IMG/VR virus record: IMGVR_UViG_3300008107_005855
Coordinates: 1 to 64,000 of that record
Source of the DNA: a virus
DNA: 64,000 bases
Strand: one strand, 5' to 3'
The notes under the pieces were generated by a model that made no database searches, was not told where the DNA came from, and saw nothing but the letters and a program-made list of their open reading frames with translations. The stretch's first letter is position 1. Each line of letters begins with the position of its first letter. Positions 1,516 to 55,190 of the stretch are shown here, piece by piece. The translations under genes were made by a program, and so were the position numbers.

Positions 1516-2018
1516 GCACAGCGCCCTTTAACAGCTTCTTTGTTGTGTAACCAAAAAAGATCATATTCTAAAATCCACCAGCGACCATGTTTTGTACTAT
1601 TATACACACTATATCCTTGATCGGCGCCTATTACGGGATCTTGAACCGCAACAAATTTTCCCTTGCGATTAAATTTCATTATCAAAATACTATAATCGCC
1701 GGAGTCTGCAACTTCTAACAGTTGCCCTAACCAAGCATCAAGAATTTTAACTTCTCCTGAGTACAGCTGATGGAATGGAAAATCTTTATAACTTTTACAT
1801 TCTGTATTGAATCGCGGAAAACTCTGACCGGGTATAATATCGCCTTTAAAACTGCGTATTTGACCTTCGTGTAAAAATTCTTTACGGGCAGAGTTAGTGC
1901 CGCCAATGTAGGCACCACTGTGCGGCACACGAATAAATCTTTCGCCGTATAGATTGGTTAAATGTTCGGCAACTTGGCGCTCCCAGGCGTTGCCCTTGGC
2001 TTTTTGTGGACTAGTCAT
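1512..2018 (-). CDS. Holliday-junction-resolvase-like PD-(D/E)XK nuclease
   Basis: 168 residues. The N-terminus has KGNAWERQ (residues 8-15), the conserved basic/Glu start of Hjc-like resolvases. PHSGA follows, then GDI (about residues 59-61) and TECKSYKD (about 72-79), which together give the E...GD...ExK metal-binding pattern of the PD-(D/E)XK nuclease fold. The length fits archaeal-type Hjc resolvases. It probably cleaves branched DNA made during replication or packaging, in the role filled by endonuclease VII in T4. It overlaps radical SAM and sulfotransferase-like genes and shares an operon with gp46/gp47, which fits a recombination role. The exact substrate is inferred. Confidence 0.65.
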   Translation of the reverse strand: MTSPQKAKGNAWERQVAEHLTNLYGERFIRVPHSGAYIGGTNSARKEFLHEGQIRSFKGDIIPGQSFPRFNTECKSYKDFPFHQLYSGEVKILDAWLGQLLEVADSGDYSILIMKFNRKGKFVAVQDPVIGADQGYSVYNSTKHGRWWILEYDLFWLHNKEAVKGRCA

Positions 2019-2889
2019 ACTTGTAATTAGTTAATTCAATTTCCTGTTGCCACTGATTTGAAAAACTAGTTTGCCCATATCTAGTACCGCAGTTTGTTTT
2101 GCAAATTGGATCAGGGCTGGTAGTCCATGTTTCTTTTAACTGTGAAAACCAACTTACTACATTATTATTTGGCTGTGAAAGGCCATGCCAACAACAAGGA
2201 AACCAATCCCCTTGTGCATTTACATATACACTCTGTTCTTTAAGTACATGACAATCGATATCAACTGATTCTATCACAGGATCAATCCAATTACGTGGAG
2301 GCCGCAAAAATGCTACAGGAACTTCGTTGTGTCGTTTGCTGACCTTGGCTCGGAACCAACTAAAACCTAAATCTTTGGCTAACTTGGCACAGTCACTGAC
2401 TTGATGCTCGTTGTGTTCAAATATCAGCATGTCCCAATGTGCGCTACCACCAGAGTCAATAAAAGTTTTAGCATTATTGATTACATGATGCCAGGCAACA
2501 TTTTTTCGATATATGTGATTGGTGTCTTCTAATCCGTCAATGCTGAATACCACATAGTCTAATGGGTTTGAAAATAATCGACCCAATTCAGTCCAAAATT
2601 TTCTATTACGTAATCCACCATTGGTATTCATTCCTAACACAATGTTTGGATTGTGCTGTCTAAAGTATCTGTAAATTTCCACAGCATCTTCAGCTGCCGC
2701 AGGGTCGCCTAAATTGCCGCACATGAACATTTTGTCCAGCGATTGAATAAATTCAACAGAAAATATTTCTTTAGCTTTTGATGCTGACATAGAGACTATC
2801 TCGTAACCAGTTTGGTATGTACGAGGGCACTGCGGACATTCGGCCTGACAGATAGTAGTGGGTTCTAGGTGCAGTACTTTTGCAGTCAT
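2011..2889 (-). CDS. Radical SAM enzyme with C-terminal SPASM-like cysteines
   Basis: A 292-residue protein from the ATG at 2889, chosen because it gives a 4-nt ATGA overlap with the upstream gene; a start at 2928 would add 13 residues and a deep overlap. The [4Fe-4S]-binding CxxxCxxC motif is at residues 14-21 (CQAECPQC). The MCGNLGDPA stretch replaces the usual GGEP strand, and CCWHG and CKTNCG near the C-terminus look like auxiliary cluster ligands of a SPASM-type domain. It should use S-adenosylmethionine to start a radical reaction; the substrate is unknown. It is paired with the next radical SAM gene. Confidence 0.75.
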   Translation of the reverse strand: MTAKVLHLEPTTICQAECPQCPRTYQTGYEIVSMSASKAKEIFSVEFIQSLDKMFMCGNLGDPAAAEDAVEIYRYFRQHNPNIVLGMNTNGGLRNRKFWTELGRLFSNPLDYVVFSIDGLEDTNHIYRKNVAWHHVINNAKTFIDSGGSAHWDMLIFEHNEHQVSDCAKLAKDLGFSWFRAKVSKRHNEVPVAFLRPPRNWIDPVIESVDIDCHVLKEQSVYVNAQGDWFPCCWHGLSQPNNNVVSWFSQLKETWTTSPDPICKTNCGTRYGQTSFSNQWQQEIELTNYKYD

Positions 2890-3920
2890 TGGTATTTCGG
2901 AATCCGTATATCTGTCACATGCATACAACGATTAAGTCTGCAGGTGACTGGCTTTGTGGGCCAAACTACAGTGTCTTTATAAAGATTGCCTAGATAATCT
3001 TGATTACATAATGCAATGTAAGTATCGCCATCGGGCCTTATATGCAAACCATTTATGCCAGCAAAGCAGGTCCAGTCTTTGAAATTTGTATAGCCGTTGT
3101 TAACTAATTCGGTGCAGTGATTTTTACTAACAGAACCGTCAGACCAGATACTGGTTACGTCTTTGTCTGTGGCTTTAAAATTGGTATTGTCTCTAACAAA
3201 CTTTAATTCTTCTTCGGTGTAGTATTGATTGATATAAAAATCATAATTGGCCAACAATAGATCTTTACTGCTGTACAATCCAACTTGGCTGGCTTTTTCG
3301 TTAGGTCTTACTACTGTAATTGTGTCTGTTTTAATTTGCGGATTGACAATTTTGTATATGGTGTTTACACCAGCATCAGCCAATCGTTGTCCGGTTTGTT
3401 TTACTAGATCTAACTCGCCAGCTTCAATCATTAAATTTGCTTTGACACGCTCTGGCCCGTATGCTTGATGCATTTCAATTATCTTTTCTACTTTTTCGTT
3501 AACTGTACTATGATTGTTTTCAAAATGAATACTAAAATTTAAATCATTTAAAAAGTTCATGGCACGATGATATACCTTGACTGGTGCGCTGGTATTGGTC
3601 ATAACGCTAACACTAGCTGTTGTAGGTAATGTAGACAGGTATTCAAAAAAATCAGGCAGATTTTTTACAATAAAAGGCTCTCCGCCGGTGAAATCGTAGT
3701 ATATTTGTTTGTTTATACTGTGTGCATAAGCATCAAGTTTATTGGCCTGCGTAATCAAATGTTCTACCGTGGGTATTTCGCTGGTAGTATCGTGATACTC
3801 ACTGCTACAATAACTGCAATCGTAATTGCATCTGATCAACAATCGCCAAAGTATCTCAATGTAACTTGATCTTGGGCGAATCATGTTAGCCATTGTGCCG
3901 CTAACCGCTTTTAGTTTCAT
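2886..3920 (-). CDS. Radical SAM enzyme
   Basis: 344 residues. CxxxCxxC lies at residues 31-38 (CNYDCSYC), followed by a GGEPF strand that binds SAM. The C-terminal part has separated cysteines (CTELV, CFAG, CNQDY, CRLNRC) that could bind an auxiliary cluster, and a stretch typical of SPASM proteins, with a glycine-rich turn and LGNLY. It overlaps gp46 upstream and the second radical SAM gene downstream by ATGA junctions, so the three are coupled. Unlike the array at 42.5-50.7 kb, here the radical SAM core is at the N-terminus. The substrate is unknown. Confidence 0.75.
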   Translation of the reverse strand: MKLKAVSGTMANMIRPRSSYIEILWRLLIRCNYDCSYCSSEYHDTTSEIPTVEHLITQANKLDAYAHSINKQIYYDFTGGEPFIVKNLPDFFEYLSTLPTTASVSVMTNTSAPVKVYHRAMNFLNDLNFSIHFENNHSTVNEKVEKIIEMHQAYGPERVKANLMIEAGELDLVKQTGQRLADAGVNTIYKIVNPQIKTDTITVVRPNEKASQVGLYSSKDLLLANYDFYINQYYTEEELKFVRDNTNFKATDKDVTSIWSDGSVSKNHCTELVNNGYTNFKDWTCFAGINGLHIRPDGDTYIALCNQDYLGNLYKDTVVWPTKPVTCRLNRCMHVTDIRIPKYQ

Positions 3921-6554: not shown

Positions 6555-7086
6555 ACTCTATATATAAAAGGTCATTTTTAACATCGTATGAAAATTTTTC
6601 AATACGGTATCGATCTAATTCGAGTTGGCTTAAATTTTTAATTCTATTATCAAATCTATTGTCATCGATAAAAGTTAAATTTAAACGTAAAATTATTTTA
6701 GTTGGTGTGTACTTGTTTGATGTTTGTGTTAATATCTTGTGTAGGTCATCGACTGATCGATATTTTAATAAAGGACTACGATCAAAAATCAATACAGATT
6801 TATTTAATTTGACTTCGGGCCATCCAATATCTTGCTCTTTTTGATCGTCTATTAATCTATCAAAGTAATCTATGGGCAATTTAAAATTTTTTACTGATGT
6901 CAGGGTTTCTAATTTATAAACTTTTTTGTTAAAATGCTCTTCATAATGCTTGCCCAAACAATCAACCATTATTGGAAGGTCGTGCATTGAAATGTCAATT
7001 AACGGTGTAATATTATGACGACTTTGTTTATAAACTAAATTATAAAAGTCTTGCCGATTCTCATCCGTTATTGTTGTTTGTTGCAT
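6538..7086 (-). CDS. Unknown protein in the gp46-gp47 cassette
   Basis: A 182-residue protein with no recognised domain, no cysteine cluster and no membrane segment. It is rich in Asp, Asn, Lys and Ile and looks like an alternating alpha/beta protein, with strands such as SVLIFDRS and KIILRLNLTF. It overlaps both neighbours (17 nt with the sulfotransferase-like gene, 26 nt with the upstream unknown gene), so the three are probably co-translated. AT-rich codon use suggests it arrived with the cassette that separates gp47 from gp46. No function is proposed. Confidence 0.6.
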   Translation of the reverse strand: MQQTTITDENRQDFYNLVYKQSRHNITPLIDISMHDLPIMVDCLGKHYEEHFNKKVYKLETLTSVKNFKLPIDYFDRLIDDQKEQDIGWPEVKLNKSVLIFDRSPLLKYRSVDDLHKILTQTSNKYTPTKIILRLNLTFIDDNRFDNRIKNLSQLELDRYRIEKFSYDVKNDLLYIEYENTN

Positions 7087-7522
7087 ATATCCAAGTCAAT
7101 GGTTGTATAAAGTTAAACTTTTTTCCTTTATCATTATCGTCTGCTCCTTTGGATTTGACATCAAATCCTTTAGCAGACAATTGAGTCTCTGCTATATTAA
7201 TTAAGTTACTACCAACTTCTGAATTGCAACGATATGTGACTTTTATGTCATTGCCTAATAGATAATACCTATTAATTCCTAGGTAACAACTTTTAATATT
7301 TGGCAAGCAATATTTTTCAATCTTATTTAAAAGATCACTGATCCAGAAAGGTGAGTTTAAAATCAAAATTAAATTGTTTTGATCTCCGCTTTGATTTAAA
7401 TGAGATGCAAAATTGGAGTCATGTCCTATATACGAGACAGATTTACTTTTGAATAGATCTAAAATTATCTTGTCTTGAGCGCATAAATTATTACCTAGTT
7501 GAACTAATCTTGGTAATTTCAT
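7061..7522 (-). CDS. Unknown protein in the gp46-gp47 cassette
   Basis: A 153-residue protein with no domain I recognise. The start ATG at 7522 overlaps the gp47 stop by 4 nt, so it is coupled to gp47. The N-terminal half reads as alternating strands and helices around YIGHDSNFASHL and LILILNSPFWI, which could be a nucleotide- or SAM-binding fold, but there is no diagnostic motif. The C-terminus is rich in Lys, Asp and Asn. It forms a pair with 6538-7086. No function is proposed. Confidence 0.6.
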   Translation of the reverse strand: MKLPRLVQLGNNLCAQDKIILDLFKSKSVSYIGHDSNFASHLNQSGDQNNLILILNSPFWISDLLNKIEKYCLPNIKSCYLGINRYYLLGNDIKVTYRCNSEVGSNLINIAETQLSAKGFDVKSKGADDNDKGKKFNFIQPLTWIYATNNNNG

Positions 7523-8538
7523 AAAGTCTGATAAATTTGTAATAGTAAGTTAGGATCAAAAGATTCTGAATTAATATTCACAATTTGATCAGTGACAATT
7601 TGATCTACTGATTCAAATTTTATATCTCCGATATTAATATTTTCTTCTCCAAATTCAGATTTTTTACTAGGGACCAATACAATTTCTCTAAGGCCAAAAT
7701 TTGACACAAAGTTTTCTTTAATAAAAGTGGCTTCCTCGTAACTGATGTCTACATCCAAATTGACCCTAACATGCATGCCAGGTTGTAGCATGGCTTCTGT
7801 GTGTGTTAGCACATCTTTTAGCCCGTACACACGATATTTAGGTTGATCGGGCCATGCATGGAATGTGGGTTCTTTGCCCCACTCTAGTATCATCATACCG
7901 CGATCGTCGTCGCCAGCATCGGCATAGTTATGAGGAAAACAGTTGCCAATGTATGTGATATTTTTTTGTGTTTGTCGTTTGTGAAAGTGCCCGGTGTACA
8001 CATGTTCAAAGTTATAAAAGTGTTCTCTACGCAAGTCACCGTGTTCGGGCATGGCTACCATAGCATTCATTAAGTATCCGGGCAACTCAAAATGCCCAAA
8101 CATATAACGACCTTTTAATTTAGGTATGCGTTTATGGTCTTCGGCAACAAGCCAAGGAGCAATAACAACATCGCCGTCGCTGAACCAATCATTACAAATT
8201 TGTACGTTTGGTAAATGTTTGGCCCACTCAACTGATTGTATATCGCGCTTGTCACGATAATACAAGTCATGATTACCGGGTATAAAGTACACCTTGTCAA
8301 AATTTGCATTCAGATGTTCGAGTGCTTGCAGGCTATAATTTAGCGTAATAATATTTATTGACGCTCGATTATTGTGCCAGTCGCCTAGGAAGAAAGCAGT
8401 TTCACACCCGTTTTCTTTGGCAGTAGCAGTGGCCCATTTAATAAAATTTAAACAGTCCTCGTTATGGACTTGGCTGTTAGATTTAAGACCAAAATGTATG
8501 TCAGTGAAGACTGCGGCTTTTTTAAAAAGATTACTCAT
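7519..8538 (-). CDS. 47: Recombination endonuclease small subunit, gp47 (SbcD/Mre11-like)
   Basis: 339 residues, the same length as T4 gp47. The metallophosphoesterase motifs appear in order: DIHFG (about 12-16), GDWHN (about 51-55), GNHD (about 92-95), and GHFHK near 182, which carries the dimetal His ligands. It should act as the Mre11-type nuclease in complex with gp46. The C-terminal region would form the capping domain. It is the first of the recombination genes transcribed after the 8563-9534 gene and leads into the three-gene cassette that precedes gp46. Confidence 0.95.
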   Translation of the reverse strand: MSNLFKKAAVFTDIHFGLKSNSQVHNEDCLNFIKWATATAKENGCETAFFLGDWHNNRASINIITLNYSLQALEHLNANFDKVYFIPGNHDLYYRDKRDIQSVEWAKHLPNVQICNDWFSDGDVVIAPWLVAEDHKRIPKLKGRYMFGHFELPGYLMNAMVAMPEHGDLRREHFYNFEHVYTGHFHKRQTQKNITYIGNCFPHNYADAGDDDRGMMILEWGKEPTFHAWPDQPKYRVYGLKDVLTHTEAMLQPGMHVRVNLDVDISYEEATFIKENFVSNFGLREIVLVPSKKSEFGEENINIGDIKFESVDQIVTDQIVNINSESFDPNLLLQIYQTL

Positions 8539-8562
8539 AGAGCTCTTATTATAGACACTTAC

Positions 8563-9534
8563 TTACAAAATTGCAAGGCCCACTACCCGGCCAATTTGCC
8601 CAAGTGCGTGTTGATAGATTGGATTGTATTGAATGTTAATTATAGGCTCAACAACATTGATATTTGATGCATAATCTCTTGCATGATATGGATTTTTCTT
8701 ATGCGGTATTTTGTCGTAATACGGATGTAGGTCTTCGTAACATGTAAATTTTACATTTGGGTTCACAAACATTTTTACAAATAATAGATAATCAACAAAA
8801 CTAATTAAAAAATTTAATGTCTCTGTCAGAGTGTTGGGGGTTATCGCTGCCGCCTCTAAATTTTTAATTAGAGTCTGATTTTCTGTTAGATTAAAATCTA
8901 AAGTCCGCATACGAAATCCCAATAGATCTGTCATATGGTGACTTAGTACCTGGCTTAAAAAACTTCTTCGAAGAATACTATATATTTCTTTTGACGCTGA
9001 CAGCGTTACCCAATTTTTGTTGTTAAACAAATCACTGTCGTGGTGGAAATATGGCTCAATACCAGTTACGCCTTTAAGTACATGAGAACCAGACCGTCCG
9101 GGAGTGAATATCACAGGCTCTTGATTTTTAGGAACTGTCAACTCATCAAATGCTATTTCGTCAAATTTGATAATTTCGTTGTATAACCAAAGACCATAGC
9201 AAATATTGCGCTTCCATTGTAGTTGATCGTACTGCGACCAGACTGGTTCTAAATTTTCTAAATCGTTTTCAAAACTAGTAAGAACTTTAACAACTTTGAC
9301 CTTTTGTTGAATTTGATAAAGATCCTGATATGATAAATTATCAGCCGGAGTTACATCAGTGACGTAGTTTGTATTCGAACAGAGAAAATATAATTTTTCT
9401 TCTAGAGTGGAGTAGACCAAATCGTCTATGTGCCAATCTGCTGTAATACATGGTAAAATTTTTAAGTTAAGTCTTTCTGCCACAGTAGACTTAACCCGAC
9501 TATTACCATTATGTATTAAAAATATATTATTCAT
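8563..9534 (-). CDS. Sulfotransferase-like protein
   Basis: 323 residues from the ATG at 9534, which overlaps the gp55 stop by 8 nt; a start at 9552 would add six residues and a 26-nt overlap. In the middle, IFTPGRSGSHVL (about residues 141-152) is a strand plus a G-R-S-G-S/T loop, as in the 5'-phosphosulfate-binding loop of sulfotransferases. An N-terminal domain of about 140 residues precedes it and is unassigned. The C-terminal part has aromatic helices and a basic segment (PHKKNPYH). If it is a sulfotransferase it would need PAPS, which links it to the APS-kinase-like gene at 55187-55981. Confidence 0.5.
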   Translation of the reverse strand: MNNIFLIHNGNSRVKSTVAERLNLKILPCITADWHIDDLVYSTLEEKLYFLCSNTNYVTDVTPADNLSYQDLYQIQQKVKVVKVLTSFENDLENLEPVWSQYDQLQWKRNICYGLWLYNEIIKFDEIAFDELTVPKNQEPVIFTPGRSGSHVLKGVTGIEPYFHHDSDLFNNKNWVTLSASKEIYSILRRSFLSQVLSHHMTDLLGFRMRTLDFNLTENQTLIKNLEAAAITPNTLTETLNFLISFVDYLLFVKMFVNPNVKFTCYEDLHPYYDKIPHKKNPYHARDYASNINVVEPIINIQYNPIYQHALGQIGRVVGLAIL

Positions 9535-41619: not shown

Positions 41620-42508
41620 TATTGCAGACCTGGACTGCATTTTTTTAACCTATGATGAACCAAAGAAAGAAGAATTTTGGATCAAAATTAGGAATATGGT
41701 TCCGTGGGCTAAACGTGTAGACGGAGTCAAAGGAAGCGATGCGGCACACAAGGCCGCGGCACAGGCCAGCGACACAGATAGATTTATATTAATCGACGGA
41801 GATAATATTCCGGACCAAGATTTTTTCAATCAACAATTAATAATCAATGAGTCTAATAAAAATTGTGTTTTTCGATGGCGAGCAAGAAATGCTATCAATG
41901 GCTTGATGTATGGCAATGGCGGACTTAGTTGTTGGACTCGTGACTTTGTTTTAAACATGCAGACACATGAGTCAAGCAACGGTCAGGATGAAAATAATGT
42001 TGAGTTTTGCTTTCATCCTGACTATTGGGCAATGAATGACTGTTATAGTACCACGTATCCTAATGCCACGCCATTTCAAGCCTGGCGAGCAGGATTCAGG
42101 GAAGGTGTCAAGATGTGCCTGGATCGAGGTTCGAGACCAAGTCTTGGAGAATTTGAATCTCGTATACACAATAGAAATTATGACAATCTATGCATTTGGC
42201 AAAGTGTTGGTGCCGATGTTGACAATGGATTTTGGTCTATATATGGCTCAAGATTGGGCACATATAAAACTATGTTAACTGACTGGGATTATAATAATGT
42301 TCAATGGTTTGATAGTCTTGCAGAAATTTGGGAAAACGAAGTAATCAAAACCGCCGGCGGCGAAATTGATCAAACAAAAGAGCTCGGTGATGCGTTGCGT
42401 ATAAAACTAGGATTGAACATAGTAGACCTAGACCCAGACCAAAGTAAATTTTTTAAGCATCACTACATGAGCCAATTTAAAAATAAAGGAATAATGGTTC
42501 GTGAATAA
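41600..42508 (+). CDS. Glycosyltransferase-like protein with DGDN motif
   Basis: 302 residues. The start (LDCIFLTYDEPKKEEFW) and a glycine turn (VKGSDAAHKAAAQAS) are followed by RFILIDGDN (about 62-70), a D-x-D metal motif of GT-A glycosyltransferases. A later block has RNAINGLMYGNGG (about 95-107) and AWRAGFREGVKM. The same blocks occur in the C-terminal domain of the 744-residue protein at 57508-59742, though that copy lost the DGDN. I therefore call it the intact member of a phage glycosyltransferase-like family. It overlaps both neighbours and precedes the radical SAM array. Confidence 0.6.
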   Translation: MSESIIDIADLDCIFLTYDEPKKEEFWIKIRNMVPWAKRVDGVKGSDAAHKAAAQASDTDRFILIDGDNIPDQDFFNQQLIINESNKNCVFRWRARNAINGLMYGNGGLSCWTRDFVLNMQTHESSNGQDENNVEFCFHPDYWAMNDCYSTTYPNATPFQAWRAGFREGVKMCLDRGSRPSLGEFESRIHNRNYDNLCIWQSVGADVDNGFWSIYGSRLGTYKTMLTDWDYNNVQWFDSLAEIWENEVIKTAGGEIDQTKELGDALRIKLGLNIVDLDPDQSKFFKHHYMSQFKNKGIMVRE

Positions 42509-43886
42509 AAGTAATTTTATGTCGTCGGCTGAGGAAATGAAGGATCAATTGGGTCCAGCATTGTGTTTGGCTAAATGGCAGCAGGTTAGTTTGCATCTTC
42601 CCACCGGACTAACTAATAGTTGTTACCATCCGCCCTTGCACCGAATAGATGTAGAACCACTTGAAAGTAACCCAGGTGCATTACACAATACAGCATATAA
42701 AAAAGAACAGCGTAAAATTATGCTACGCAATGAAAAACCTGCAGAGTGTAGTTATTGCTGGAATATTGAAAAACACGATCAATTAAGCGATCGTCATTAT
42801 CGATCAGGTGAACCCTGGGCCGCCGCGAATTTTGAAAAAATTAAAAACATGACAGGCGACGAAGATATTGTTCCTAGTTATGTTGAAGTAAATTTTAATC
42901 ATGCCTGCAATTTAAAATGCAGTTATTGCAGTCCACAATTTTCAAGTTCCTGGATGGCAGAAATAGATAAGTTTGGAGCCTACCCGACTAGTGTTCCGCA
43001 CAACGATCCTAGTCATTTTGCAGGACGCCGACGTCCAATTCCGCACAGTCAAGAGAATCCGTATGTTGAAGCTTTTTGGAAGTGGTGGACAACTTTATAT
43101 CCCAAACTAAAACACTTTCGCATGACCGGTGGCGAGCCGTTGATGGATAAGAACACGTATCGGGTTTTTGATTATGTGTTGGCATTACCCAATCCTGAAT
43201 TGCATTTGAATGTTACTAGTAATTTTAGTGTTGAAGAAAAATTGTTTGATGAGTACCTAAGTTACGTTAAACGATTGTGTAACACACAAATTGAACATTT
43301 CATGCAGTATGTTAGTTTAGATACTGGCAATTGGGAACATGCAGAATATATTCGTGGCGGCCTAGATAAAAATCGTGTACACAAGTATGTGCATAGATAC
43401 TTGGATGAAATACCATATAAAAATAGCTTAACATTTATTATCACTATGAATAATCTGAGTGTACTTGGCATACAGCAATTGTTACAATGGATTCTAGATC
43501 TAAGAGAACAGTATAGTTCAACTTATCAACGTGTTTGGTTTGATACACCTTTGCTCAGAAGTCCTAGCTGGCAAAGTCTACAAATACTACCACCCATGTA
43601 CGCAGATCGATTAGAACAAGTGGCCAATTGGATGGAACATTATAAAGAAACTCCCGAAGCACCATTCAAAGGGTTTAAAGATTACGAAATCCAACGTATG
43701 CGTAGAGATATTGATTGGATGCGAGAAGGTAGCAATTTGGATGCAGACTATGTTAAAATGCAACGTGCAGATTTTTATAGATTTTTTAACGAGTACGACA
43801 AAAGACGCCAATCAAATTTTTTAGAGACCTTTCCTCAAATGAAAGAATTTTGGAACGAATGTAGATACCATGCCCAGACTAACTAA
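42501..43886 (+). CDS. N-terminal-twitch radical SAM enzyme, copy 1
   Basis: 461 residues from a GTG overlapping the previous stop. The auxiliary-cluster (twitch/SPASM-like) domain comes first, with Cys 22, 41, 83 and 86 (ECSYCW). The radical SAM core follows: CNLKCSYC at 136-143 and TGGEPLM near 211. The order is the reverse of ordinary SPASM enzymes and matches the family named N-terminal twitch radical SAM. The enzyme should bind two Fe-S clusters and modify an unknown substrate, by analogy a peptide or small metabolite. It is first of six related genes, coupled by 17-nt or smaller overlaps to its neighbours. Confidence 0.85.
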   Translation: MNKSNFMSSAEEMKDQLGPALCLAKWQQVSLHLPTGLTNSCYHPPLHRIDVEPLESNPGALHNTAYKKEQRKIMLRNEKPAECSYCWNIEKHDQLSDRHYRSGEPWAAANFEKIKNMTGDEDIVPSYVEVNFNHACNLKCSYCSPQFSSSWMAEIDKFGAYPTSVPHNDPSHFAGRRRPIPHSQENPYVEAFWKWWTTLYPKLKHFRMTGGEPLMDKNTYRVFDYVLALPNPELHLNVTSNFSVEEKLFDEYLSYVKRLCNTQIEHFMQYVSLDTGNWEHAEYIRGGLDKNRVHKYVHRYLDEIPYKNSLTFIITMNNLSVLGIQQLLQWILDLREQYSSTYQRVWFDTPLLRSPSWQSLQILPPMYADRLEQVANWMEHYKETPEAPFKGFKDYEIQRMRRDIDWMREGSNLDADYVKMQRADFYRFFNEYDKRRQSNFLETFPQMKEFWNECRYHAQTN

Positions 43887-45219
43887 CGAATCCGATGTAG
43901 AATACAAACGCAGAGTCATTGACATCAAGTCAGACAGTTTCTGCGGAGCCAAGTGGTACAACGCCACTATATGGTTAGGGTCAGGACAAACTACTAGTTG
44001 CCATCATCCATTACCGCATGCTATAGATGTCAGTGAGTTAAAGACAAATCCCAAAGCCTTACATAACACTACCAAGAAGAAAATGGAACGTGAGCAAATG
44101 CAAAAAGGCGAACGTCCTGCAGGTTGCGAATACTGTTGGAAAATTGAAGACATTGGGCGAGATAATATTAGCGATCGTGTTTATAAAACTGTAATTTATT
44201 CAGATGAGGATTTAGCCTATGCGTACCGTACTCCTGCAAGAGAAGACATTGATCTTCAAACATTGGAAATCGCCTTTGACCGTACTTGCCAGTTTGCTTG
44301 TAGTTACTGCAATCCTGCTTTTAGTAGCACATGGGTTAAAGATATTCGTACCAACGGCGCTTATACTGGATTGGTCAGTGACGGCCGCAACCATTTCACT
44401 CATGCTCATGATAGCAGTCAACTGTATAAATTCGGTGAAGTTAATCCTTACGTGGAAGCATTCCACAAGTGGTGGGAAAAAGACCTACACAGAACACTCA
44501 AGGAACTTAGAATAACCGGCGGTGAGCCATTGATGAGTGCAGAGACTTGGAAACTGATTGAATGGTTTAAAACTAACAAAGGCAAAAGCACCACACGACT
44601 TGCCATCAACAGCAATCTAGGCACAGATGTAGACATTGATCGGTTACTTGCGGCCATTGACGGTGTTGAAGTGGATCTTTATACCAGCAACGAATCAATG
44701 AGTCTACAGGCAGAGTACATTCGCGATGGATTGGTATTTGACGATTGGGCCAATAATGTAGAACGTTTACTAGATAGTGGTAAATTCCGCGGCCTACATG
44801 TAATGTGTACAATCAATGCATTGTGCTTGGATAGCTTAGATAGTTTCTTGGAAATGGTTTATAATTGGAAGATCGAGTACGGAAAAGACAGCATCAATTT
44901 TTCGCTAAATATTTTAAGATTTCCCAGTTTCCAAAGTCCGTTAATTTTACCGGACAACATTCGAAAACAATACCAACAAAAATTAATGGACTTTATGACC
45001 AATCATAAAGGTGACAGTATGTTCCACGAATTTGAATGGAATCAATTACAACGCCTAGTGGATTATCTTGATGTAGTCAAGACACCGCACACAGGCGCCG
45101 CCGAGCAAACTACATTACAAAAAGATTTTAAAACATTTTACACGCAATACGATCAACGAAGAAATAAAAACTTTGTTAACACATTTCCTGAATTAGCAGA
45201 TTGGTACAATACATTATGA
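43870..45219 (+). CDS. N-terminal-twitch radical SAM enzyme, copy 2
   Basis: 449 residues and closest to copy 1 in the array: both have a CxxKW segment, a CHHPLPHAID-type segment (CYHPPLHRID in copy 1) and a shared LHNT segment. Twitch cysteines are 25, 44, 86 and 89; the radical SAM motif CQFACSYC is at 140-147; GGEPLM follows near 217. The C-terminus ends FVNTFPELADWY, matching the FLETFPQMKEFW ending of copy 1. Copies 1 and 2 look like a recent pair. It starts 17 nt inside copy 1, and its stop overlaps copy 3 (ATGA). Confidence 0.85.
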   Translation: MPRLTNESDVEYKRRVIDIKSDSFCGAKWYNATIWLGSGQTTSCHHPLPHAIDVSELKTNPKALHNTTKKKMEREQMQKGERPAGCEYCWKIEDIGRDNISDRVYKTVIYSDEDLAYAYRTPAREDIDLQTLEIAFDRTCQFACSYCNPAFSSTWVKDIRTNGAYTGLVSDGRNHFTHAHDSSQLYKFGEVNPYVEAFHKWWEKDLHRTLKELRITGGEPLMSAETWKLIEWFKTNKGKSTTRLAINSNLGTDVDIDRLLAAIDGVEVDLYTSNESMSLQAEYIRDGLVFDDWANNVERLLDSGKFRGLHVMCTINALCLDSLDSFLEMVYNWKIEYGKDSINFSLNILRFPSFQSPLILPDNIRKQYQQKLMDFMTNHKGDSMFHEFEWNQLQRLVDYLDVVKTPHTGAAEQTTLQKDFKTFYTQYDQRRNKNFVNTFPELADWYNTL

Positions 45220-46547
45220 CAGATAAATTAGAAAACTACTATCAAGGTTACGACTACGGAGCTCGTAAACCTGTTTATATCACCGAAGAAGAATTAAGAC
45301 CCGACCAAGCCGACAAATTAATTAAAAGCGATCGCTTTTGTATGCTTCCTTGGATTCATATGCATGCTTTCCCCGATGGCCGTGCCTACAGTTGTTGTCT
45401 GTCAGAGATTGATTATCCAATTGGCAACTTAAAACAAAACACTCTCAAAGAAATTTGGAACAGTGACGAGTATCGCAAGATGCGAGTTAACATGATGAAC
45501 GAAAATCCTAGCTCGGCCTGCGCCAGGTGTTACGAGCAAGAAGAAAATGGATTTTTTAGTATGCGTAACAGCGCCAACAAAAATTTTGGTCAGCATATCG
45601 GATTACTTGATCAAACTAAAGAAGATGGCACACTAGATGAATTTAAATTAAGATATTACGATATTCGTTTCAGTAATTTGTGTAATTTTAAATGTAGAAC
45701 CTGTGGCAGTATTTTTAGTAGCAATTGGTACAACGACGAAATTAAAGCAGGATGGAAACCAAAGAATCCGCAGATCATGTACGCTGGCAAAGACGAGGAT
45801 GACATGTGGGAACAGATGTTAGAACACATTCCGCACCTGGAACAAATTTACTTTGCCGGCGGCGAACCTCTAATTATGAAAGAGCACTGGAAAATCTTAG
45901 ATGAATTAGTAAAACGTGAAATGTTCCATGTACGATTAATTTACAATACTAACTTCAGTGAAATGAAATTTAAAGGGCGTGATGTATTTGAGATGTGGAA
46001 ACTGTTTGAGTGTGTAAGTATTGGAGCCAGTTTAGATGGTAGTCACGAACGTGGTGAATATATACGCAAAGGACAAGATTGGAAACAAACAGTCGAAAAT
46101 CGCGAACGTATGTTAAAGATATGTCCTAACGTAGACTTTTATGTTAGCACTACCCTAAGTCTATACAATGCTTTTCATGTAACCGATTTTCATAGAGAGT
46201 GGGTGGATCTTGGACTGATTAGACCAATGGACTGGAACATCAATATTTTACAAGACCCTCCACGAGATCGAATTGATGTATTGCCTCACAAACTTAAATT
46301 AAAAGCCAAAGAAAATTTTGAAAAACATATAGAATGGCTAGAACCGTTAGACTCATTGACGCGAGCAACACAAGGTTATAGAAGTGCAATCAATTTTATG
46401 ATGCAGTCTGACAACAGTCACGAGTTGCATAATTTTTTTAGAACCAACAATACATTGGATAGAATTAGAGAAGAAGATTTCTTTAAAATCTTCCCTGAGC
46501 TAATAGATCTACGCAGTAACTGGAAAGAACTGAATGCAAAATCATAA
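45216..46547 (+). CDS. N-terminal-twitch radical SAM enzyme, copy 3
   Basis: 443 residues from the ATG at 45216, which gives an ATGA overlap with copy 2; a start at 45201 would add five residues. The twitch domain is in the more typical form: FCMLPW (Cys 42), a CC pair (60/61), LGN-type turn (GNLKQNTLKEIW) and CARC (102/105). The radical SAM motif CNFKCRTC is at 156-163, with GGEPLI further on. The N-terminal 40 residues are a charged extension absent from copies 4-6. It ends IFPELIDL, like the array's other members. Confidence 0.85.
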   Translation: MTDKLENYYQGYDYGARKPVYITEEELRPDQADKLIKSDRFCMLPWIHMHAFPDGRAYSCCLSEIDYPIGNLKQNTLKEIWNSDEYRKMRVNMMNENPSSACARCYEQEENGFFSMRNSANKNFGQHIGLLDQTKEDGTLDEFKLRYYDIRFSNLCNFKCRTCGSIFSSNWYNDEIKAGWKPKNPQIMYAGKDEDDMWEQMLEHIPHLEQIYFAGGEPLIMKEHWKILDELVKREMFHVRLIYNTNFSEMKFKGRDVFEMWKLFECVSIGASLDGSHERGEYIRKGQDWKQTVENRERMLKICPNVDFYVSTTLSLYNAFHVTDFHREWVDLGLIRPMDWNINILQDPPRDRIDVLPHKLKLKAKENFEKHIEWLEPLDSLTRATQGYRSAINFMMQSDNSHELHNFFRTNNTLDRIREEDFFKIFPELIDLRSNWKELNAKS

Positions 46548-47388
46548 TGATACTTTTTGTTTAGTTCCTTGGGTTGGTGTAGAAATAAAACACAATAACT
46601 TGTGTTCTTTATGTTGTATGCATAAAGAAAATATAAAATTAGACAATGGCGAAGTTGCAGACTTATCAAAGCATAGCATCGATACCATACTGGATAGTAG
46701 TTTTGTTAAAACTATTAAAAATGATTTTGAGCAAGGACTGAAGCCAGAGATATGCAACGCTTGCTGGCACCAAGAAAGCAACAGTTTTATAAGTAAAAGG
46801 CAAGTCTATTTTAATTCTCTAAAATCAAAATCAACGGACACAAACAATATCCTATACCTTGACGTAAAAATGGGAAAAGCCAGATACAAGAAGTCTGTGC
46901 TATCGGGCGTTGATATTTCGTCAACTACACTGCCAAAAAACGATCAGTACTGGGAAAATATTTTTAAGATAATTCCAACAGTGCAAGAATTAGAATTCAC
47001 TGGCGAATGTTTTGAGTTACCCGAGCATAGTAAGTTAATTGATTTTATCATTGAATCAGGACATGCCCCTAACATGTTGCTACATTATAAAACCAATGGA
47101 TCAAAAGTCATAACTCATTTAAAAGATAAATGGAAACTTTTTAAAAGTATACGTGTTACACTATCACTATACGACATAGAAGAATGTTTTTTATCTGATT
47201 GGTACGAATGCACATGGACTGATTTGACAAAAAATCTCAATTCAACGTTTGAATTAATACAGGACTTACCAAATCTTAATTTAGGTTTAGTTTCAACCAT
47301 TGACAACGATAACAGACACAGAAAAGAAGTAATTTATAATTGGGCAAAGCAATATCCTTTTTCATCAATAATTTTCAATGAAAAATAA
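46534..47388 (+). CDS. Radical SAM pseudoenzyme, copy 4 (catalytic cysteines lost)
   Basis: 284 residues, homologous to the neighbouring copies but shorter. The twitch cysteines remain: Cys 9 (FCLVPW), CC 27/28, Cys 74 and 77 (CNACW). The radical SAM motif is destroyed. Aligned with copy 5 (CNLKCRIC), the sequence is RYKKSVLS: the three cluster cysteines are Arg 117, Ser 121 and Ser 124. GGEP also became TGEC. The protein stops before the C-terminal part present in the others. The frame is intact and overlaps both neighbours, so it is unlikely to be debris. It may be a scaffold, carrier or partner for the active copies. Confidence 0.8.
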   Translation: MQNHNDTFCLVPWVGVEIKHNNLCSLCCMHKENIKLDNGEVADLSKHSIDTILDSSFVKTIKNDFEQGLKPEICNACWHQESNSFISKRQVYFNSLKSKSTDTNNILYLDVKMGKARYKKSVLSGVDISSTTLPKNDQYWENIFKIIPTVQELEFTGECFELPEHSKLIDFIIESGHAPNMLLHYKTNGSKVITHLKDKWKLFKSIRVTLSLYDIEECFLSDWYECTWTDLTKNLNSTFELIQDLPNLNLGLVSTIDNDNRHRKEVIYNWAKQYPFSSIIFNEK

Positions 47389-48604
47389 TTTACCTACTAC
47401 TATTTGTATGCTGCCTTGGATCAGCATCGAATCCAGTCCAATGGGCACTGCACGGCCTTGTTGTCTTGCAAGAGAAGAGATCACCGACGACACTGGATCT
47501 GCGATTAAATTAAAAACTCATACGCTAGAGTACGCATATAAAAGTCAGTATATGCAGAATCTCAGAGAGTCGTTCCGCAATGGCGAAAAACCAGAAACAT
47601 GCAAATTGTGTTGGGAAGAAGAAGCCGCCGGCCGCACCAGTAAAAGATTAAACAGTCGAGTCAGGCTAAAAGAATTGTATAATCAAGTTGATTGGGAAAA
47701 CAATATTCCAGATCAACTGTGGTTCGTTGATCTTAAATTGGGCAATATCTGTAATCTTAAATGTCGGATTTGTGGCAGTTGGAGCAGTAGTAAGTGGGCC
47801 ACCGAAGAAATGGACTATCTACCCAAAGGCGAAGATAAGAAAAAACACATTGCATATACTTGGCTTAAAGAAGGAAGATGGATCGAAGAGTCGCCGTCTT
47901 TCTGGGAAAACTTAAAAACTCTATTGCCACAAATTAAGTATTTTGAGTTCACTGGTGGCGAGCCTTGGCTAATACAAGAACACTGGGACTTGTTAAAATA
48001 TGCTGTAGAGACAGGCAATAGTAAACACATTGACATACACTACAATACCAATGCCACAGTTAATTCATTGGGTGCAGAAAAATCTGAGTTATGGAATCAT
48101 TTTGGTCGTGTTGACATTGCCTTCAGCATAGATAACGTAGGAGATCGTTTTGAATATGAGCGTTATGGTGCAAAGTGGGACGAAGCAAATGAAATCATCG
48201 ATGGAATTCATTTTGCCAAGAATGTAGACACCCCAAATATAACCACACAACTTTGTTTTACAATTAATATACAAAATGTTTATTATTTAGATGAACTGTT
48301 AGATTGGGCAAATACAAAACCGTTTGGCAGTGTGTATTTTAATATGTTACACAGCCCTAATCACATGAGTGTGCAGTATATGACTCCAAATGCCAAGGAA
48401 CTAGTTTTAAACAAACTGAAAACAACATTTTGGAAAACAAAACAATATCAACAAGAAATTAATAATTTAATTAAATTCATTGAGAATGGTACTGGCAGCA
48501 ATGGATCTGAGTTTCTGGGTCAGATGAAACGCACAGATGAATATCGTAAACAATGCTTTACCGACACTCATCCAGAGATAGCACGGGCAATGGGGTATGA
48601 GTAA
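47378..48604 (+). CDS. N-terminal-twitch radical SAM enzyme, copy 5
   Basis: 408 residues. Twitch: Cys 10 (ICMLPW), CC 28/29 (RPCCLARE) and CKLCW at 75/78. The radical SAM motif CNLKCRIC is at 125-132, followed by SWSSSKW, a W-x-E strand and TGGEPW. It is the best template for reading the degenerate copy 4, which it follows with an 11-nt overlap. The C-terminus has FTDTHPEIARAMG, similar to the array's ending. The next gene begins within its last codons. Confidence 0.85.
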   Translation: MKNNLPTTICMLPWISIESSPMGTARPCCLAREEITDDTGSAIKLKTHTLEYAYKSQYMQNLRESFRNGEKPETCKLCWEEEAAGRTSKRLNSRVRLKELYNQVDWENNIPDQLWFVDLKLGNICNLKCRICGSWSSSKWATEEMDYLPKGEDKKKHIAYTWLKEGRWIEESPSFWENLKTLLPQIKYFEFTGGEPWLIQEHWDLLKYAVETGNSKHIDIHYNTNATVNSLGAEKSELWNHFGRVDIAFSIDNVGDRFEYERYGAKWDEANEIIDGIHFAKNVDTPNITTQLCFTINIQNVYYLDELLDWANTKPFGSVYFNMLHSPNHMSVQYMTPNAKELVLNKLKTTFWKTKQYQQEINNLIKFIENGTGSNGSEFLGQMKRTDEYRKQCFTDTHPEIARAMGYE

Positions 48605-49388
48605 TATAACTGTTACCTTTGTGGGACAGCCGAGTCTACATTTAGCAATAGATGATACTCCCATCGGATGTCGTTATATTGATTTAATAAAGATGGCCTA
48701 TGATTTTAGTAGACCAATTTACAGAGATACGTTAAAATACAACGAAGATTATATGAAAGATTTAGCCGAACAGGCTAAACAGGTATTCAATTGGGACTGG
48801 GACAGTGTCGGTGATTATACCACAGGCATTGCACCTGCGCTACATAAAAATCTTGAAATTTTATTGAAGAACGGATTTGACTCAATACCAGAGCAGTACG
48901 ACAATTTAGTACACGAGTTACATTATTGTTTACATCTGGTACAGCATAAGAAACTTGATACAGTCAGGAATTCTTGGCTACAAATAGAATGGTATAATGA
49001 CATGGGATTCGACTTACCATATGATTTTAACTTTGCAGACACATTAAATTTTGGAGATGTTAAGTTACAGAACCCGTTTGTAGGACACGGCCCATTGCAG
49101 ATATACCAAGAACAGGACCATATTAACATTAGCCAGACTTGTAAGTTTCACAACTTTGTTAAACCTGGTATCAATATAGCTGAACGGAACTATCCTACGT
49201 TCACGGAACACCAACAACTAATTGATTTTTTTGTTAAACACGATATTAACTTTGTTGAGAAACACGGAGTAGACAAAATATTACACTATACCGGATATCC
49301 GGTCATTGGGCGTGTAATAAACTTAGATGACTTGCAACAGGTGGTTGAGGCATCTGCACTAAAATTAGAGAGTATCAAGTTTGAATAA
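48597..49388 (+). CDS. Unknown protein between radical SAM copies 5 and 6
   Basis: 263 residues with no recognised domain. It has an N-terminal strand region, helices with aromatic residues (LHKNLEILLKNG, LVHELHYCLHLV, about 80-125) and a C-terminal HYTGYPVIGRV segment. The pattern L-H-N/K-x-x-E-x-L followed by an H-E-x-E/H helix and a W-x-Q-I segment also occurs in the 51076 protein, so the two may be distantly related. It overlaps copy 5 and copy 6, so it is an integral part of the array. It might be a partner or substrate of the radical SAM enzymes. Confidence 0.6.
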   Translation: MSNITVTFVGQPSLHLAIDDTPIGCRYIDLIKMAYDFSRPIYRDTLKYNEDYMKDLAEQAKQVFNWDWDSVGDYTTGIAPALHKNLEILLKNGFDSIPEQYDNLVHELHYCLHLVQHKKLDTVRNSWLQIEWYNDMGFDLPYDFNFADTLNFGDVKLQNPFVGHGPLQIYQEQDHINISQTCKFHNFVKPGINIAERNYPTFTEHQQLIDFFVKHDINFVEKHGVDKILHYTGYPVIGRVINLDDLQQVVEASALKLESIKFE

Positions 49389-50673
49389 GCCTGCAACATT
49401 ATGTATGGCGCCTTGGACGCACACATATCTAAGCCCACAGACTGAAAGACGTATGTGTTGTGCCAGTCGTGAGCCTGCACAAAATTTTCAACAATACATT
49501 GACACAGCAGCCGGAAGCGGCCAATACACACCAATTACACTAGACACTCATTGGAACAGCGAGCACATGAAGTCGGTGCGTAGACGAATGATGGCAGGAG
49601 AGACCCTGCCCGAGTGCGAAGTATGCAACGACAAATTGTTAAACACATCGGTGTACAGGTCGTACTTTAATAGTTTATTTGACCATAAGTATTTGCAAGC
49701 AATGCAGGAAACTGACGACACTGGTCATACAACAATGAAGCCGGTTAGTTGGGATTATCGATTTAGTAACTTGTGTAATTTTAAATGCCGCATGTGTGGC
49801 GACATGTTGTCAAGCGCATGGGAAAGTGAACAGCGACAACATAATATGATCGATTGGGCTAATCCCAAAAATACATGGATGCGGCCCGAGATAAAAAAAG
49901 AGATTGAAAATTTTCAATCAAACCAAATTGAAGAAGAGTTTTCTAACGCAGTTGAAGAACATCGTGTAGAAGAAGTATATTGGGTCGGTGGCGAACCATT
50001 GATGTATGAACAACATTGGCGTTATATGACTCGCATAATAGAACTAGGAGATGGCCCACATGTTTATGCCAGGTACAACACCAATCTTAGCCGAGTTGAT
50101 TATCAAGGGCGTAACCTTTATCGCGATGTTCTGGCTCATTTACGAGATTGGCAAATTTGCGCGAGCATTGACGGCACTGGAGAAATCGGTGAGTATATTA
50201 GGACAGGACTTAATTACGAAAGATGGCTCGAAAACTTCAAACAAGGACTTGCCATTGCCCGACACAGTCGACAAATGCGATTAGACTTTACGCTAACATT
50301 ACCGGGAATGTTTGAAGTTGAAAAAATTAATCAATTGGCAAAAGAATTAAATGTAGATGTCTTGGCCAAAGTAATTTTTAGTTTTAGCCCGGACATAGTT
50401 ATGTCACCGCTAGCACTACCCAGGAAACTATTAGAACCCTGGGTAGACGATATATTGCACTCCATTGATAAAGGAGCTCTACGTGATATACTTGTCCAGC
50501 TAAAAACTAGACCCACTTTTGAAGAACAATGGCCTGACACATACAAAGAATCTATTGTGCGTGGCAAACAACGTATATTAAAGTTAGAACAAATACGTGA
50601 TCAAAAAGTAACATACGCAGATATATTATCTGCCAGACCTGAGGTATTAACATGGTGGATGAACATCAATTAA
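49381..50673 (+). CDS. N-terminal-twitch radical SAM enzyme, copy 6
   Basis: 430 residues from a TTG that overlaps the preceding TAA; the first Met after it would cut off the conserved Cys 8. Twitch: Cys 8 (LCMAPW), CC 26/27, Cys 79/82 (CEVC). The radical SAM motif CNFKCRMC is at 132-139, with VGGEPLM near 204. Closest in motif detail to copy 3 (FSNLCNFKCRxC). The last gene of the array; the CxxCxxCC gene overlaps its end. Confidence 0.85.
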   Translation: MNKPATLCMAPWTHTYLSPQTERRMCCASREPAQNFQQYIDTAAGSGQYTPITLDTHWNSEHMKSVRRRMMAGETLPECEVCNDKLLNTSVYRSYFNSLFDHKYLQAMQETDDTGHTTMKPVSWDYRFSNLCNFKCRMCGDMLSSAWESEQRQHNMIDWANPKNTWMRPEIKKEIENFQSNQIEEEFSNAVEEHRVEEVYWVGGEPLMYEQHWRYMTRIIELGDGPHVYARYNTNLSRVDYQGRNLYRDVLAHLRDWQICASIDGTGEIGEYIRTGLNYERWLENFKQGLAIARHSRQMRLDFTLTLPGMFEVEKINQLAKELNVDVLAKVIFSFSPDIVMSPLALPRKLLEPWVDDILHSIDKGALRDILVQLKTRPTFEEQWPDTYKESIVRGKQRILKLEQIRDQKVTYADILSARPEVLTWWMNIN

Positions 50674-53087: not shown

Positions 53088-53716
53088 TACTAGTACTAGG
53101 CGACAGTTTTACTTACGGTGAAGAATTAGCATCACCCGAGGAATCTGCTTGGCCTGTACTATTAGACATGGAAGCAAAAAACTATGGCCATCCTGGTGCC
53201 AGTAACGATTTAATGATGCGGTTACTGACAAACCACACTCGGTATGGTCACTATAGTCACGTTATTATTGCATGGACAACTCCTAATCGCATAGAACTGC
53301 CATCAACTCAATCGCCAGAAGCTGACGTTGGAAAATCAAAACCAAAAAAATGCAAGAACATTGGCGCCAACAGTTACAGGAAGTACGGAAAAATTGTAGA
53401 CGATATTTTCAGCGACTGGGATGAAACGTGGGCGTACACAAAATTTGAAACTCAGATGTGGATGGCAGATGCCTGGCTAACACAACAAAAGATACCGCAC
53501 TTGTTTGTCAGTACATTTGATATTCAACGAATAGTAAACAAAACAGGTTGGTCTAGTAGACCCGACTGTTATTATGGGTTTTATCCTGCAGAAGGATTAG
53601 TAGAATGGATGGGCGATTGTCCCAAAGGTCCAGGCGGACATCCGCTAGAGTTAGGGCATCAAAGAATAGCAAAGAAAATCAATGAACATATTAGGCATCT
53701 CGGCTGGATTTCATGA
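53084..53716 (+). CDS. SGNH-type hydrolase 2
   Basis: 210 residues. LGDSFTYGEEL at the N-terminus (nucleophile Ser 8) and GGHPLELGH near residue 188 (catalytic His region) mark the SGNH hydrolase fold. It is paralogous to the gene before: same block I, WPxxL motif, W-T-x-x-x-R segment and HPLE-x-x-H end, but 63 residues shorter. Its start overlaps the micro-protein stop by ATGA. It could deacetylate or esterify the same glycan that the carbamoyltransferase and glycosyltransferases handle. Confidence 0.7.
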   Translation: MILVLGDSFTYGEELASPEESAWPVLLDMEAKNYGHPGASNDLMMRLLTNHTRYGHYSHVIIAWTTPNRIELPSTQSPEADVGKSKPKKCKNIGANSYRKYGKIVDDIFSDWDETWAYTKFETQMWMADAWLTQQKIPHLFVSTFDIQRIVNKTGWSSRPDCYYGFYPAEGLVEWMGDCPKGPGGHPLELGHQRIAKKINEHIRHLGWIS

Positions 53717-55190
53717 CGCGGCTGTTACAGTAATCAAAGACGACGAAATAGTCTTTGCCGGACACGCAGAACGTTACAGTAAAATAAAAAACGATTCGCA
53801 TCTCAATGATAAATTAATTGGAGAGGCATTAGAATTTGGCGACCCAGATGTAGTGTCGTATTACGAACGTCCCTGGGCAAAAAAATTACAACAACTATAT
53901 TCCGGACAATACAATGAAGCGTTCAATTTTAGCAATTACACTTTGGGTCAGTATCTGCATCAACATATATCTAATCCTGTTTATCTTGAGTCATTACTAC
54001 GATGCCCTCGAAAATATATGTCCCATCATCATAGTCACGCCGCAGGAGGATTCCAGACCAGCCCCTTTGATCGAGCGACAGTGGTTGTAATTGATGCCAT
54101 TGGAGAACTAGACACCGTATCAATTTGGGGTGCAGAATATGTCAACGGACAGGCCAAGTACACAAAGCTATGGGGACAACGGTATCCGCACAGTATTGGA
54201 TTGTTCTATAGTGCAATGACCAAACGTGTAGGACTTAGGCCCTTAGACGAAGAATACATAATGATGGGCATGGCCGCATACGGTGACAAAAACCAATATC
54301 AGTTGTTAAAAGAAATGTCTAATAGCTTAATAAAATCGTATAAAGATATTACTTTCAAAGAGAATTTGCATATAGGTGTCTCTGATGATTTTGCAAAAGA
54401 TGCAAATGAGATGGACATCGCTACCAGTGCTCAATTGGTATGTGAGGAATTGGTTTATAGTGTAATGACCCGAGCCAGAGACTTTAACTGGTCCAACAAC
54501 TTAGTTTACATGGGTGGAGTTGCACTTAACTGTTTAGCCAATAGACGCTTAGGAGATTACTTTGAGAATATTTGGATTATGCCTAATCCCGGCGATGCTG
54601 GTAGTAGTCTCGGTGCTGCCGCTTTGGCTCATGGAGGTAGAGTTAACTGGACCAGTGCTAGTCTCGGGACTAATATTTCTGGGCCTTATCCCGTTGATGG
54701 CCTTTTGGATAGGCTACTTACTGAACAGATTGTGGGAGTTGCCTCGGGCAGAGCCGAGTTTGGTCCCCGCGCACTTGGAAACCGTAGCCTCCTTGCAGAC
54801 CCTAGAGGCAGCGAGATTAAGGAGAAAGTAAATGAAATCAAACGTAGACAACAATTCAGACCCTTTGCGCCCGTTATTTTGGAGGAGTTGGCTGATATGT
54901 ACTTTGATATGCCTAGGGGTTGGAGTGACAGTAGGTATATGCAACTCGTCGGTCGTTGTAGGGTTCCTGAGTTATTTCCTGCTATCGTTCACCATGATGG
55001 CACTAGTCGTATACAAACTGTTCCACAAGATGGAAGCGGAATACGAAAATTATTAGAAAAGTGGTACGCAACAACTGGATGTCCAATGTTACTCAATACC
55101 AGTTTAAATATCCGTGGCGAACCCATGGTCAATGACCGCACTGATGCGGATCGGTTCGAACAATTATATAACGTAAAGGTTTTATCATGA
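53682..55190 (+). CDS. Carbamoyltransferase (NodU/CmcH family)
   Basis: 502 residues. The N-terminus has ILGISAGFHDAAV, the start of the YrdC/Kae1-like domain of NodU-type O-carbamoyltransferases; HHHSHAAGGF (about 112-121) holds metal-binding His residues; MGGVALNC, PNPGDAGSSLGAA, EFGPRALGNRS and FRPFAPVILEE follow. Such enzymes transfer carbamoyl phosphate to hydroxyl groups on antibiotics, Nod factors or sugars. The length is slightly short for the family. It starts 35 nt inside SGNH 2 and ends overlapping the APS-kinase gene. From about 54580 to 54790 the third codon positions become poor in A (8 of 70 by my count, against 22 of 62 at the start of the gene), where membrane-type frames are nested. 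Confidence 0.85.
   Translation: MNILGISAGFHDAAVTVIKDDEIVFAGHAERYSKIKNDSHLNDKLIGEALEFGDPDVVSYYERPWAKKLQQLYSGQYNEAFNFSNYTLGQYLHQHISNPVYLESLLRCPRKYMSHHHSHAAGGFQTSPFDRATVVVIDAIGELDTVSIWGAEYVNGQAKYTKLWGQRYPHSIGLFYSAMTKRVGLRPLDEEYIMMGMAAYGDKNQYQLLKEMSNSLIKSYKDITFKENLHIGVSDDFAKDANEMDIATSAQLVCEELVYSVMTRARDFNWSNNLVYMGGVALNCLANRRLGDYFENIWIMPNPGDAGSSLGAAALAHGGRVNWTSASLGTNISGPYPVDGLLDRLLTEQIVGVASGRAEFGPRALGNRSLLADPRGSEIKEKVNEIKRRQQFRPFAPVILEELADMYFDMPRGWSDSRYMQLVGRCRVPELFPAIVHHDGTSRIQTVPQDGSGIRKLLEKWYATTGCPMLLNTSLNIRGEPMVNDRTDADRFEQLYNVKVLS
54595..54831 (+). CDS. Possible nested membrane ORF A (inside the carbamoyltransferase gene)
   Basis: A 78-codon frame in the +1 frame relative to the carbamoyltransferase, from ATG 54595 to TAA 54829-54831. 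The first 45 residues could form two short hydrophobic segments, followed by a polar tail with Arg/Lys at the end. It has no clear ribosome-binding site, so it would need coupling or leaky initiation. The stop is directly followed by the ATG of frame B. It might be a chance frame: other genes here also have hydrophobic +1 frames. Confidence 0.2.
   Translation: MLVVVSVLPLWLMEVELTGPVLVSGLIFLGLIPLMAFWIGYLLNRLWELPRAEPSLVPAHLETVASLQTLEAARLRRK
54832..55056 (+). CDS. Possible nested membrane ORF B (inside the carbamoyltransferase gene)
   Basis: A 74-codon frame, +1 relative to the carbamoyltransferase, beginning directly at the end of frame A. AAGGAG (54819-54824) lies 7 nt before its ATG, an ideal ribosome-binding site. 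The product has a polar start, two predicted membrane segments (about 20-37 and 42-62) and a charged end, a plausible small membrane protein such as a holin-like or ATP-synthase-I-like topology. No family match is claimed. It lies wholly inside a conserved part of the carbamoyltransferase. Confidence 0.3.
   Translation: MKSNVDNNSDPLRPLFWRSWLICTLICLGVGVTVGICNSSVVVGFLSYFLLSFTMMALVVYKLFHKMEAEYENY

Follow-up and report, generated by a model that had tools for sequence, protein, structure and literature searches.

The locus examined here raises the question of what a gene that has lost the catalytic centre of a radical SAM enzyme is doing between two paralogues that have kept it. The window, a stretch of 64,000 nucleotides from a virus record of 127 kb, carries between 42.5 and 50.7 kb five intact twitch-domain radical SAM genes, here called copies 1, 2, 3, 5 and 6, together with the gene under study, PS (46534..47388), which lies between copies 3 and 5. 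All of them are encoded on the plus strand. The intact genes are copy 1 (42501..43886, CNLKCSYC), copy 2 (43870..45219, CQFACSYC), copy 3 (45201..46547, CNFKCRTC; TTG at the listed start, with an in-frame ATG 15 nt on), copy 5 (47378..48604, CNLKCRIC) and copy 6 (49381..50673, CNFKCRMC), each with a GGEP motif. The same cassette contains a carbamoyltransferase gene (53682..55190, plus strand; Pfam PF02543/PF16861), whose downstream position is conserved in relatives, while no Fe-S carrier of the Fe-S_biosyn type was found in the virus record.

The PS frame is complete, running from an ATG through 284 amino acids to a stop codon with no internal stop, and the chance of 284 open codons at its base composition is small (P ~3e-11). 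Its start overlaps the stop of copy 3 by 14 nt (46534..46547, plus strand) and its stop overlaps the ATG of copy 5 by 11 nt (47378..47388, plus strand), which bears out an earlier note describing an intact frame overlapped by both neighbours. Most cassette genes overlap their neighbours, and in relatives two lengths of the copy 3/copy 5 overlap are common, 14 nt among them. Because the PS stop overlaps the start of copy 5, no decayed remnant of a PS C-terminus lies downstream.

Profile searches place PS in the N_Twi_rSAM family (NF033640, twitch domain-containing radical SAM proteins; E 3e-34), and judged by this match it is a true homologue along its full length. At 118.7 bits it falls short of the curated cut-off (170), while the five neighbouring copies reach 290-407 bits. 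The only other family match is a sub-threshold one of residues 9-78 to Pfam SPASM PF13186 (E 0.0025). Since the best matches of PS are copy-5 orthologues (about 133-140 bits, against 65 bits for the best other copy type), PS is assigned by similarity to a copy-5 origin, and copy 5 is also its closest paralogue within the window. Its place within the copy-5 family is not interpretable from trees, in which the terminal branch is saturated at 10 changes per column. At variable sites, PS leans weakly towards the copy 5s of three contigs, L116, L221 and L226 (22-24% identity, mean 14.5%). These three copy 5s (L116:7359-8939, L221:7122-8708 and L226:7125-8711) carry an additional N-terminal region of ~130 residues. 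We also considered whether PS is a displaced form of the "type 5B" copy found in L016, the nearest relative. That copy occupies the same slot behind copy 3 and is a top-ranking BLAST match of PS, but this origin was rejected, as the L016 copy is ordinary at variable sites (15%).

Alignment with copy 5 shows which parts of the enzyme are gone. The three cluster cysteines of copy 5 (C125, C129 and C132) correspond to R117, S121 and S124 in PS, as the earlier note had read them. The former cluster loop (residues 115-130, KARYKKSVLSGVDISS, 46876..46923, plus strand), which is modelled by AlphaFold2 at low confidence, has 12 of its 16 residues replaced and an adjacent deletion. The superfamily signature CxxxCxxC (PF04055) is absent, with no PF04055 match, and so is the GGE(P) SAM-binding motif of the same superfamily. 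The loss of GGEP was noticed before and stands, but its form was misread as a change to TGEC: FTGGEPW of copy 5 has become FT-GECF (residues 156-159, 46999..47010, plus strand), with one glycine deleted and the proline replaced by cysteine. In addition, PS lacks copy-5 residues ~139-169, a loop of ~28 residues after the cluster motif, as well as the ~86 residues beyond barrel strand 6, and the conserved D252, R257, E259 and R262 have become Y, C, L and W. All of these insertions and deletions are in frame. The N-terminal twitch segment (residues 9-78, 46558..46767, plus strand) retains all five cysteines (C9, C27, C28, C74 and C77) that are invariant across the copy-5 family, again in agreement with the earlier reading.

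An AlphaFold2 model based on 75 aligned sequences (pLDDT 85.7, pTM 0.84) predicts the N-terminal twitch region and a partial (beta/alpha)6 barrel of the radical SAM type, with six strands and an end just after strand 6. The only segment below 50 is residues 125-130, inside the former cluster loop. As the alignment consists of copy-5 relatives, the model leans towards the copy-5 fold. Foldseek against the PDB returned mixed barrel matches, none with E <0.001; the radical SAM proteins viperin, CteB, SuiB and NifB were among the best folds, viperin near the top of the list (probability 1.00, TM 0.43).

Relatives were collected by scanning IMG/VR with the cassette proteins, which gave 301 loci with the copies usually in the order 1-2-3-5-6. 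The earlier note had called for a search for the same motif loss in related phages, and none was found: among 940 distinct homologous ORFs of at least 280 aa from large viral contigs, the sole one without the SAM-cluster motif is PS itself (1/940), a count that covers relatives with a readable site, four lying outside the alignment columns and reading CNxxCPxC and two being cut at a contig end. Among the relatives compared, the motif loss of PS is not shared. Nor was a PS orthologue found between copy 3 and copy 5, which relatives join directly. Within an earlier subset of the loci, 19 of 112 distinct copy 3-copy 5 junctions carry an insert, and none of the 19 is PS-like, the inserts being either genes of other kinds or additional intact radical SAM genes. 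A gene of ~333 residues with a CNxxCPxC radical SAM motif recurs in the PS slot of the junction in L050, L051, L043, L084 and L156. Searches of viral contigs with PS and of phages by tblastn found no close relative, and a search of genome contigs with a PS-based alignment gave one weak match, on a short Flavobacterium MAG contig. Within what was searched, PS is a singleton, known from one virus; that the relatives compared do without it means that the cassette can dispense with it.

Whether a gene without catalytic residues has simply drifted was approached by simulations from one sequence of one genome, with an approximated ancestor, for which either copy 5 or its L016 orthologue was taken. 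Sequences that had drifted neutrally to 27% protein identity contained ~20 stops on average (minimum 8-10) and 0/500 frames were open, against 0 stops in PS; at 60% identity there were already ~11 stops (minimum 2-4). When drift continued until the active site had changed as much as in PS, the sequences had on average gained 18 stops and kept 1.4 twitch cysteines; no run out of 500 stayed open, none kept all twitch cysteines and none matched PS. The earlier claim that PS is not the product of random decay is upheld by these frames, by twitch cysteines and structural residues kept above the stop-only expectation and by the confident fold, and simple decay is rejected by the tests available. Judged by simulation from a single sequence, PS appears to be a homologue without catalytic residues that is maintained by selection, although some of this signal may be a legacy of its enzyme past.

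Selection on the reading frame alone might in principle produce such a gene. If PS served translational coupling only, ribosomes would cross it to reach the overlapping start of copy 5, so that stops and frameshifts would be counterselected and the amino acids free to change. Overlaps with both neighbours (14 and 11 nt), like those of most cassette genes, suit such a role, but coupling needs no ORF in this slot, as in relatives copy 5 follows copy 3 directly. Moreover, with stops forbidden and amino acids free, the simulated substitutions are less conservative than those of PS (mean BLOSUM62 at changed sites -0.88+-0.12, against -0.40), and 1.1-1.4 of the five twitch cysteines survive against five in PS, all five being kept in 0 of 300 runs from each of four starting sequences. 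PS also keeps 39 of 70 conserved non-active-site residues and ~14% of variable ones, which free amino acids would hardly yield, and we regard coupling alone as improbable. The losses are weakly concentrated in the active site: 6 of 20 conserved active-site columns are kept, against the 39 of 70 elsewhere (P 0.07), and retention in twitch and core differs with P 0.11, while among the cysteines 5/5 of the twitch and 0/3 of the cluster remain (P 0.018). This difference between the active site and the remaining conserved residues is no more than suggestive.

A less simple form of decay would have a duplicate diverge while still active and lose its centre shortly before now. The singleton state of PS, its saturated branch, its C-terminal truncation and its GC content of 0.318, the lowest among the six copies, are what such a history might leave. 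A plausible precursor state exists in L063/L064, one virus pair in which two intact copy-5-type genes (6641-7846 and 7821-9050) follow copy 3, the first of them fast-evolving (branch 0.8-1.0, against ~0.2); this tandem could picture the state before PS. The loop-divergence simulation nevertheless argues against recent inactivation, because replacement of 12/16 loop residues plus a deletion would neutrally leave ~18 stops and ~1.4 twitch cysteines, with 0/500 runs matching PS, and every indel of PS keeps the frame. We consider recent decay unlikely. Repurposing, in which PS would have acquired an activity of its own, independent of the active copies (for instance substrate or glycan binding, or new chemistry at Cys159/Cys24), is in our judgement also rather improbable. 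The site is strongly remodelled and not merely point-mutated, the partial barrel is predicted to be intact and a carbamoyltransferase is encoded nearby, all of which would fit, but PS shows no known alternative active-site signature and no family match beyond N_Twi_rSAM and the sub-threshold SPASM.

The reading we prefer, to which we give about an even chance, is that PS is a constrained pseudoenzyme with a retained auxiliary site and a long-lost SAM-cleaving centre, serving as a folded non-catalytic partner of copies 3 and/or 5. On this view its ancestor was a twitch radical SAM enzyme of the copy-5 type whose SAM-cleaving centre disappeared at an early date, while the folded protein persisted without catalytic function. 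With the ligand cysteines present, PS may bind one auxiliary [4Fe-4S] cluster and pair with copy 3 and/or copy 5, replacing an active subunit; these two are favoured as partners, since both lie next to PS and they occur fused to each other in 12 contigs. Its role would be that of a structural or regulatory subunit or of an auxiliary-cluster electron relay, and the two are equally compatible with what is seen. PS is thus probably a non-catalytic partner protein, the partnership and the electron-donor role being what we infer. The roles that the earlier note had suggested, those of a scaffold, substrate carrier or cluster donor for active paralogues, are candidates as well.

Inactive relatives exist by name in NCBIfam, namely TIGR04347 pseudo_SAM_Halo, "pseudo-SAM/SPASM". 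Pseudo-SAM/SPASM families derive from radical SAM proteins and lack the SAM-cluster motif while keeping an auxiliary-cluster domain, as PS does; PS, however, does not match TIGR04347, is encoded by a phage and belongs to the N-twitch type. Compared with N_Twi_rSAM proteins, with which it shares the N-terminal twitch cysteines, PS lacks CxxxCxxC, GGEP and the C-terminal extension. Our searches found no other phage-borne, N-twitch, auxiliary-cluster-only member, and our literature search on inactive radical SAM proteins returned nothing relevant. Radical SAM arrays have already been published for T4-like phages and pelagimyophages, one with 12 such genes (PMC5332604), and radical SAM cassettes have been reported in a phage hypervariable region (PMC7029224). 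These arrays resemble the present cassette in the number of radical SAM genes per phage and in their variable-region setting, but the excerpts of the two papers that we consulted mention no inactive copy (PMC5332604, PMC7029224).

What auxiliary clusters do in SPASM/twitch radical SAM enzymes has been termed largely enigmatic, and a PapB variant without the radical SAM cluster still activates QueE via intermolecular electron transfer (PMC10470005). That variant has auxiliary clusters and no SAM cluster (PMC10470005), as PS may, and by analogy it offers a concrete mode of action for PS; unlike PS, it is engineered, of the SPASM type and equipped with two auxiliary clusters, where PS would have one. 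A stronger proposal is that the virus reduced a radical SAM enzyme to a subunit with an auxiliary cluster only, dedicated to intermolecular electron relay to the active paralogues or to partnering them in assembly; it draws on this analogy and is improbable. If it were true, PS would be the natural equivalent of the engineered PapB deletion, and a selected protein with the auxiliary site and without the SAM site, beside active paralogues, would make the auxiliary-cluster role testable in isolation. Paired related Fe-S subunits that act jointly, as proposed for PS, are known from Dph1-Dph2 (PMC11048331) and LipS1/LipS2 (PMC9585515), although both partners in these pairs retain their Fe-S motifs and belong to other families.

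The copy 3-copy 5 fusions are single ORFs of ~850 residues, and their copy-5 halves belong to two distinct clades, a pattern that suggests recurrent fusion and a copy 3-copy 5 complex. Both active sites are intact in L035:9992-12541, L049:7405-10011, L127:13229-15787, L146:11299-13875, L097:7399-9990, L076:5599-8166, L095:6339-8933, L081:6984-9536, L205:6159-8726 and L308:12707-15307, as well as in L200:11335-13587 (751 aa), which reaches the contig end. A natural fusion was modelled poorly (pLDDT 60, pTM 0.44), with no readable interface. Together, PS and the recurrent fusions suggest that phage radical SAM arrays act as hetero-complexes and not as independent enzymes.

Some further features were seen at these loci. 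Another fused radical SAM pair, of 904 aa, occurs at L072:3738-6449. Copy 2 is split over two ORFs at L023:7885-9286, and so is the carbamoyltransferase gene at L030:16783-18279, in each case through a frameshift, a stop or an assembly error. The virus's own record also holds, near 78 kb (L008), a QueE-like radical SAM protein gene (1090-1962, minus strand) and a QueD-like gene (2619-3116, minus strand) close together, and this pair suggests, by its likeness to QueE and QueD, a 7-deazaguanine pathway in this phage.
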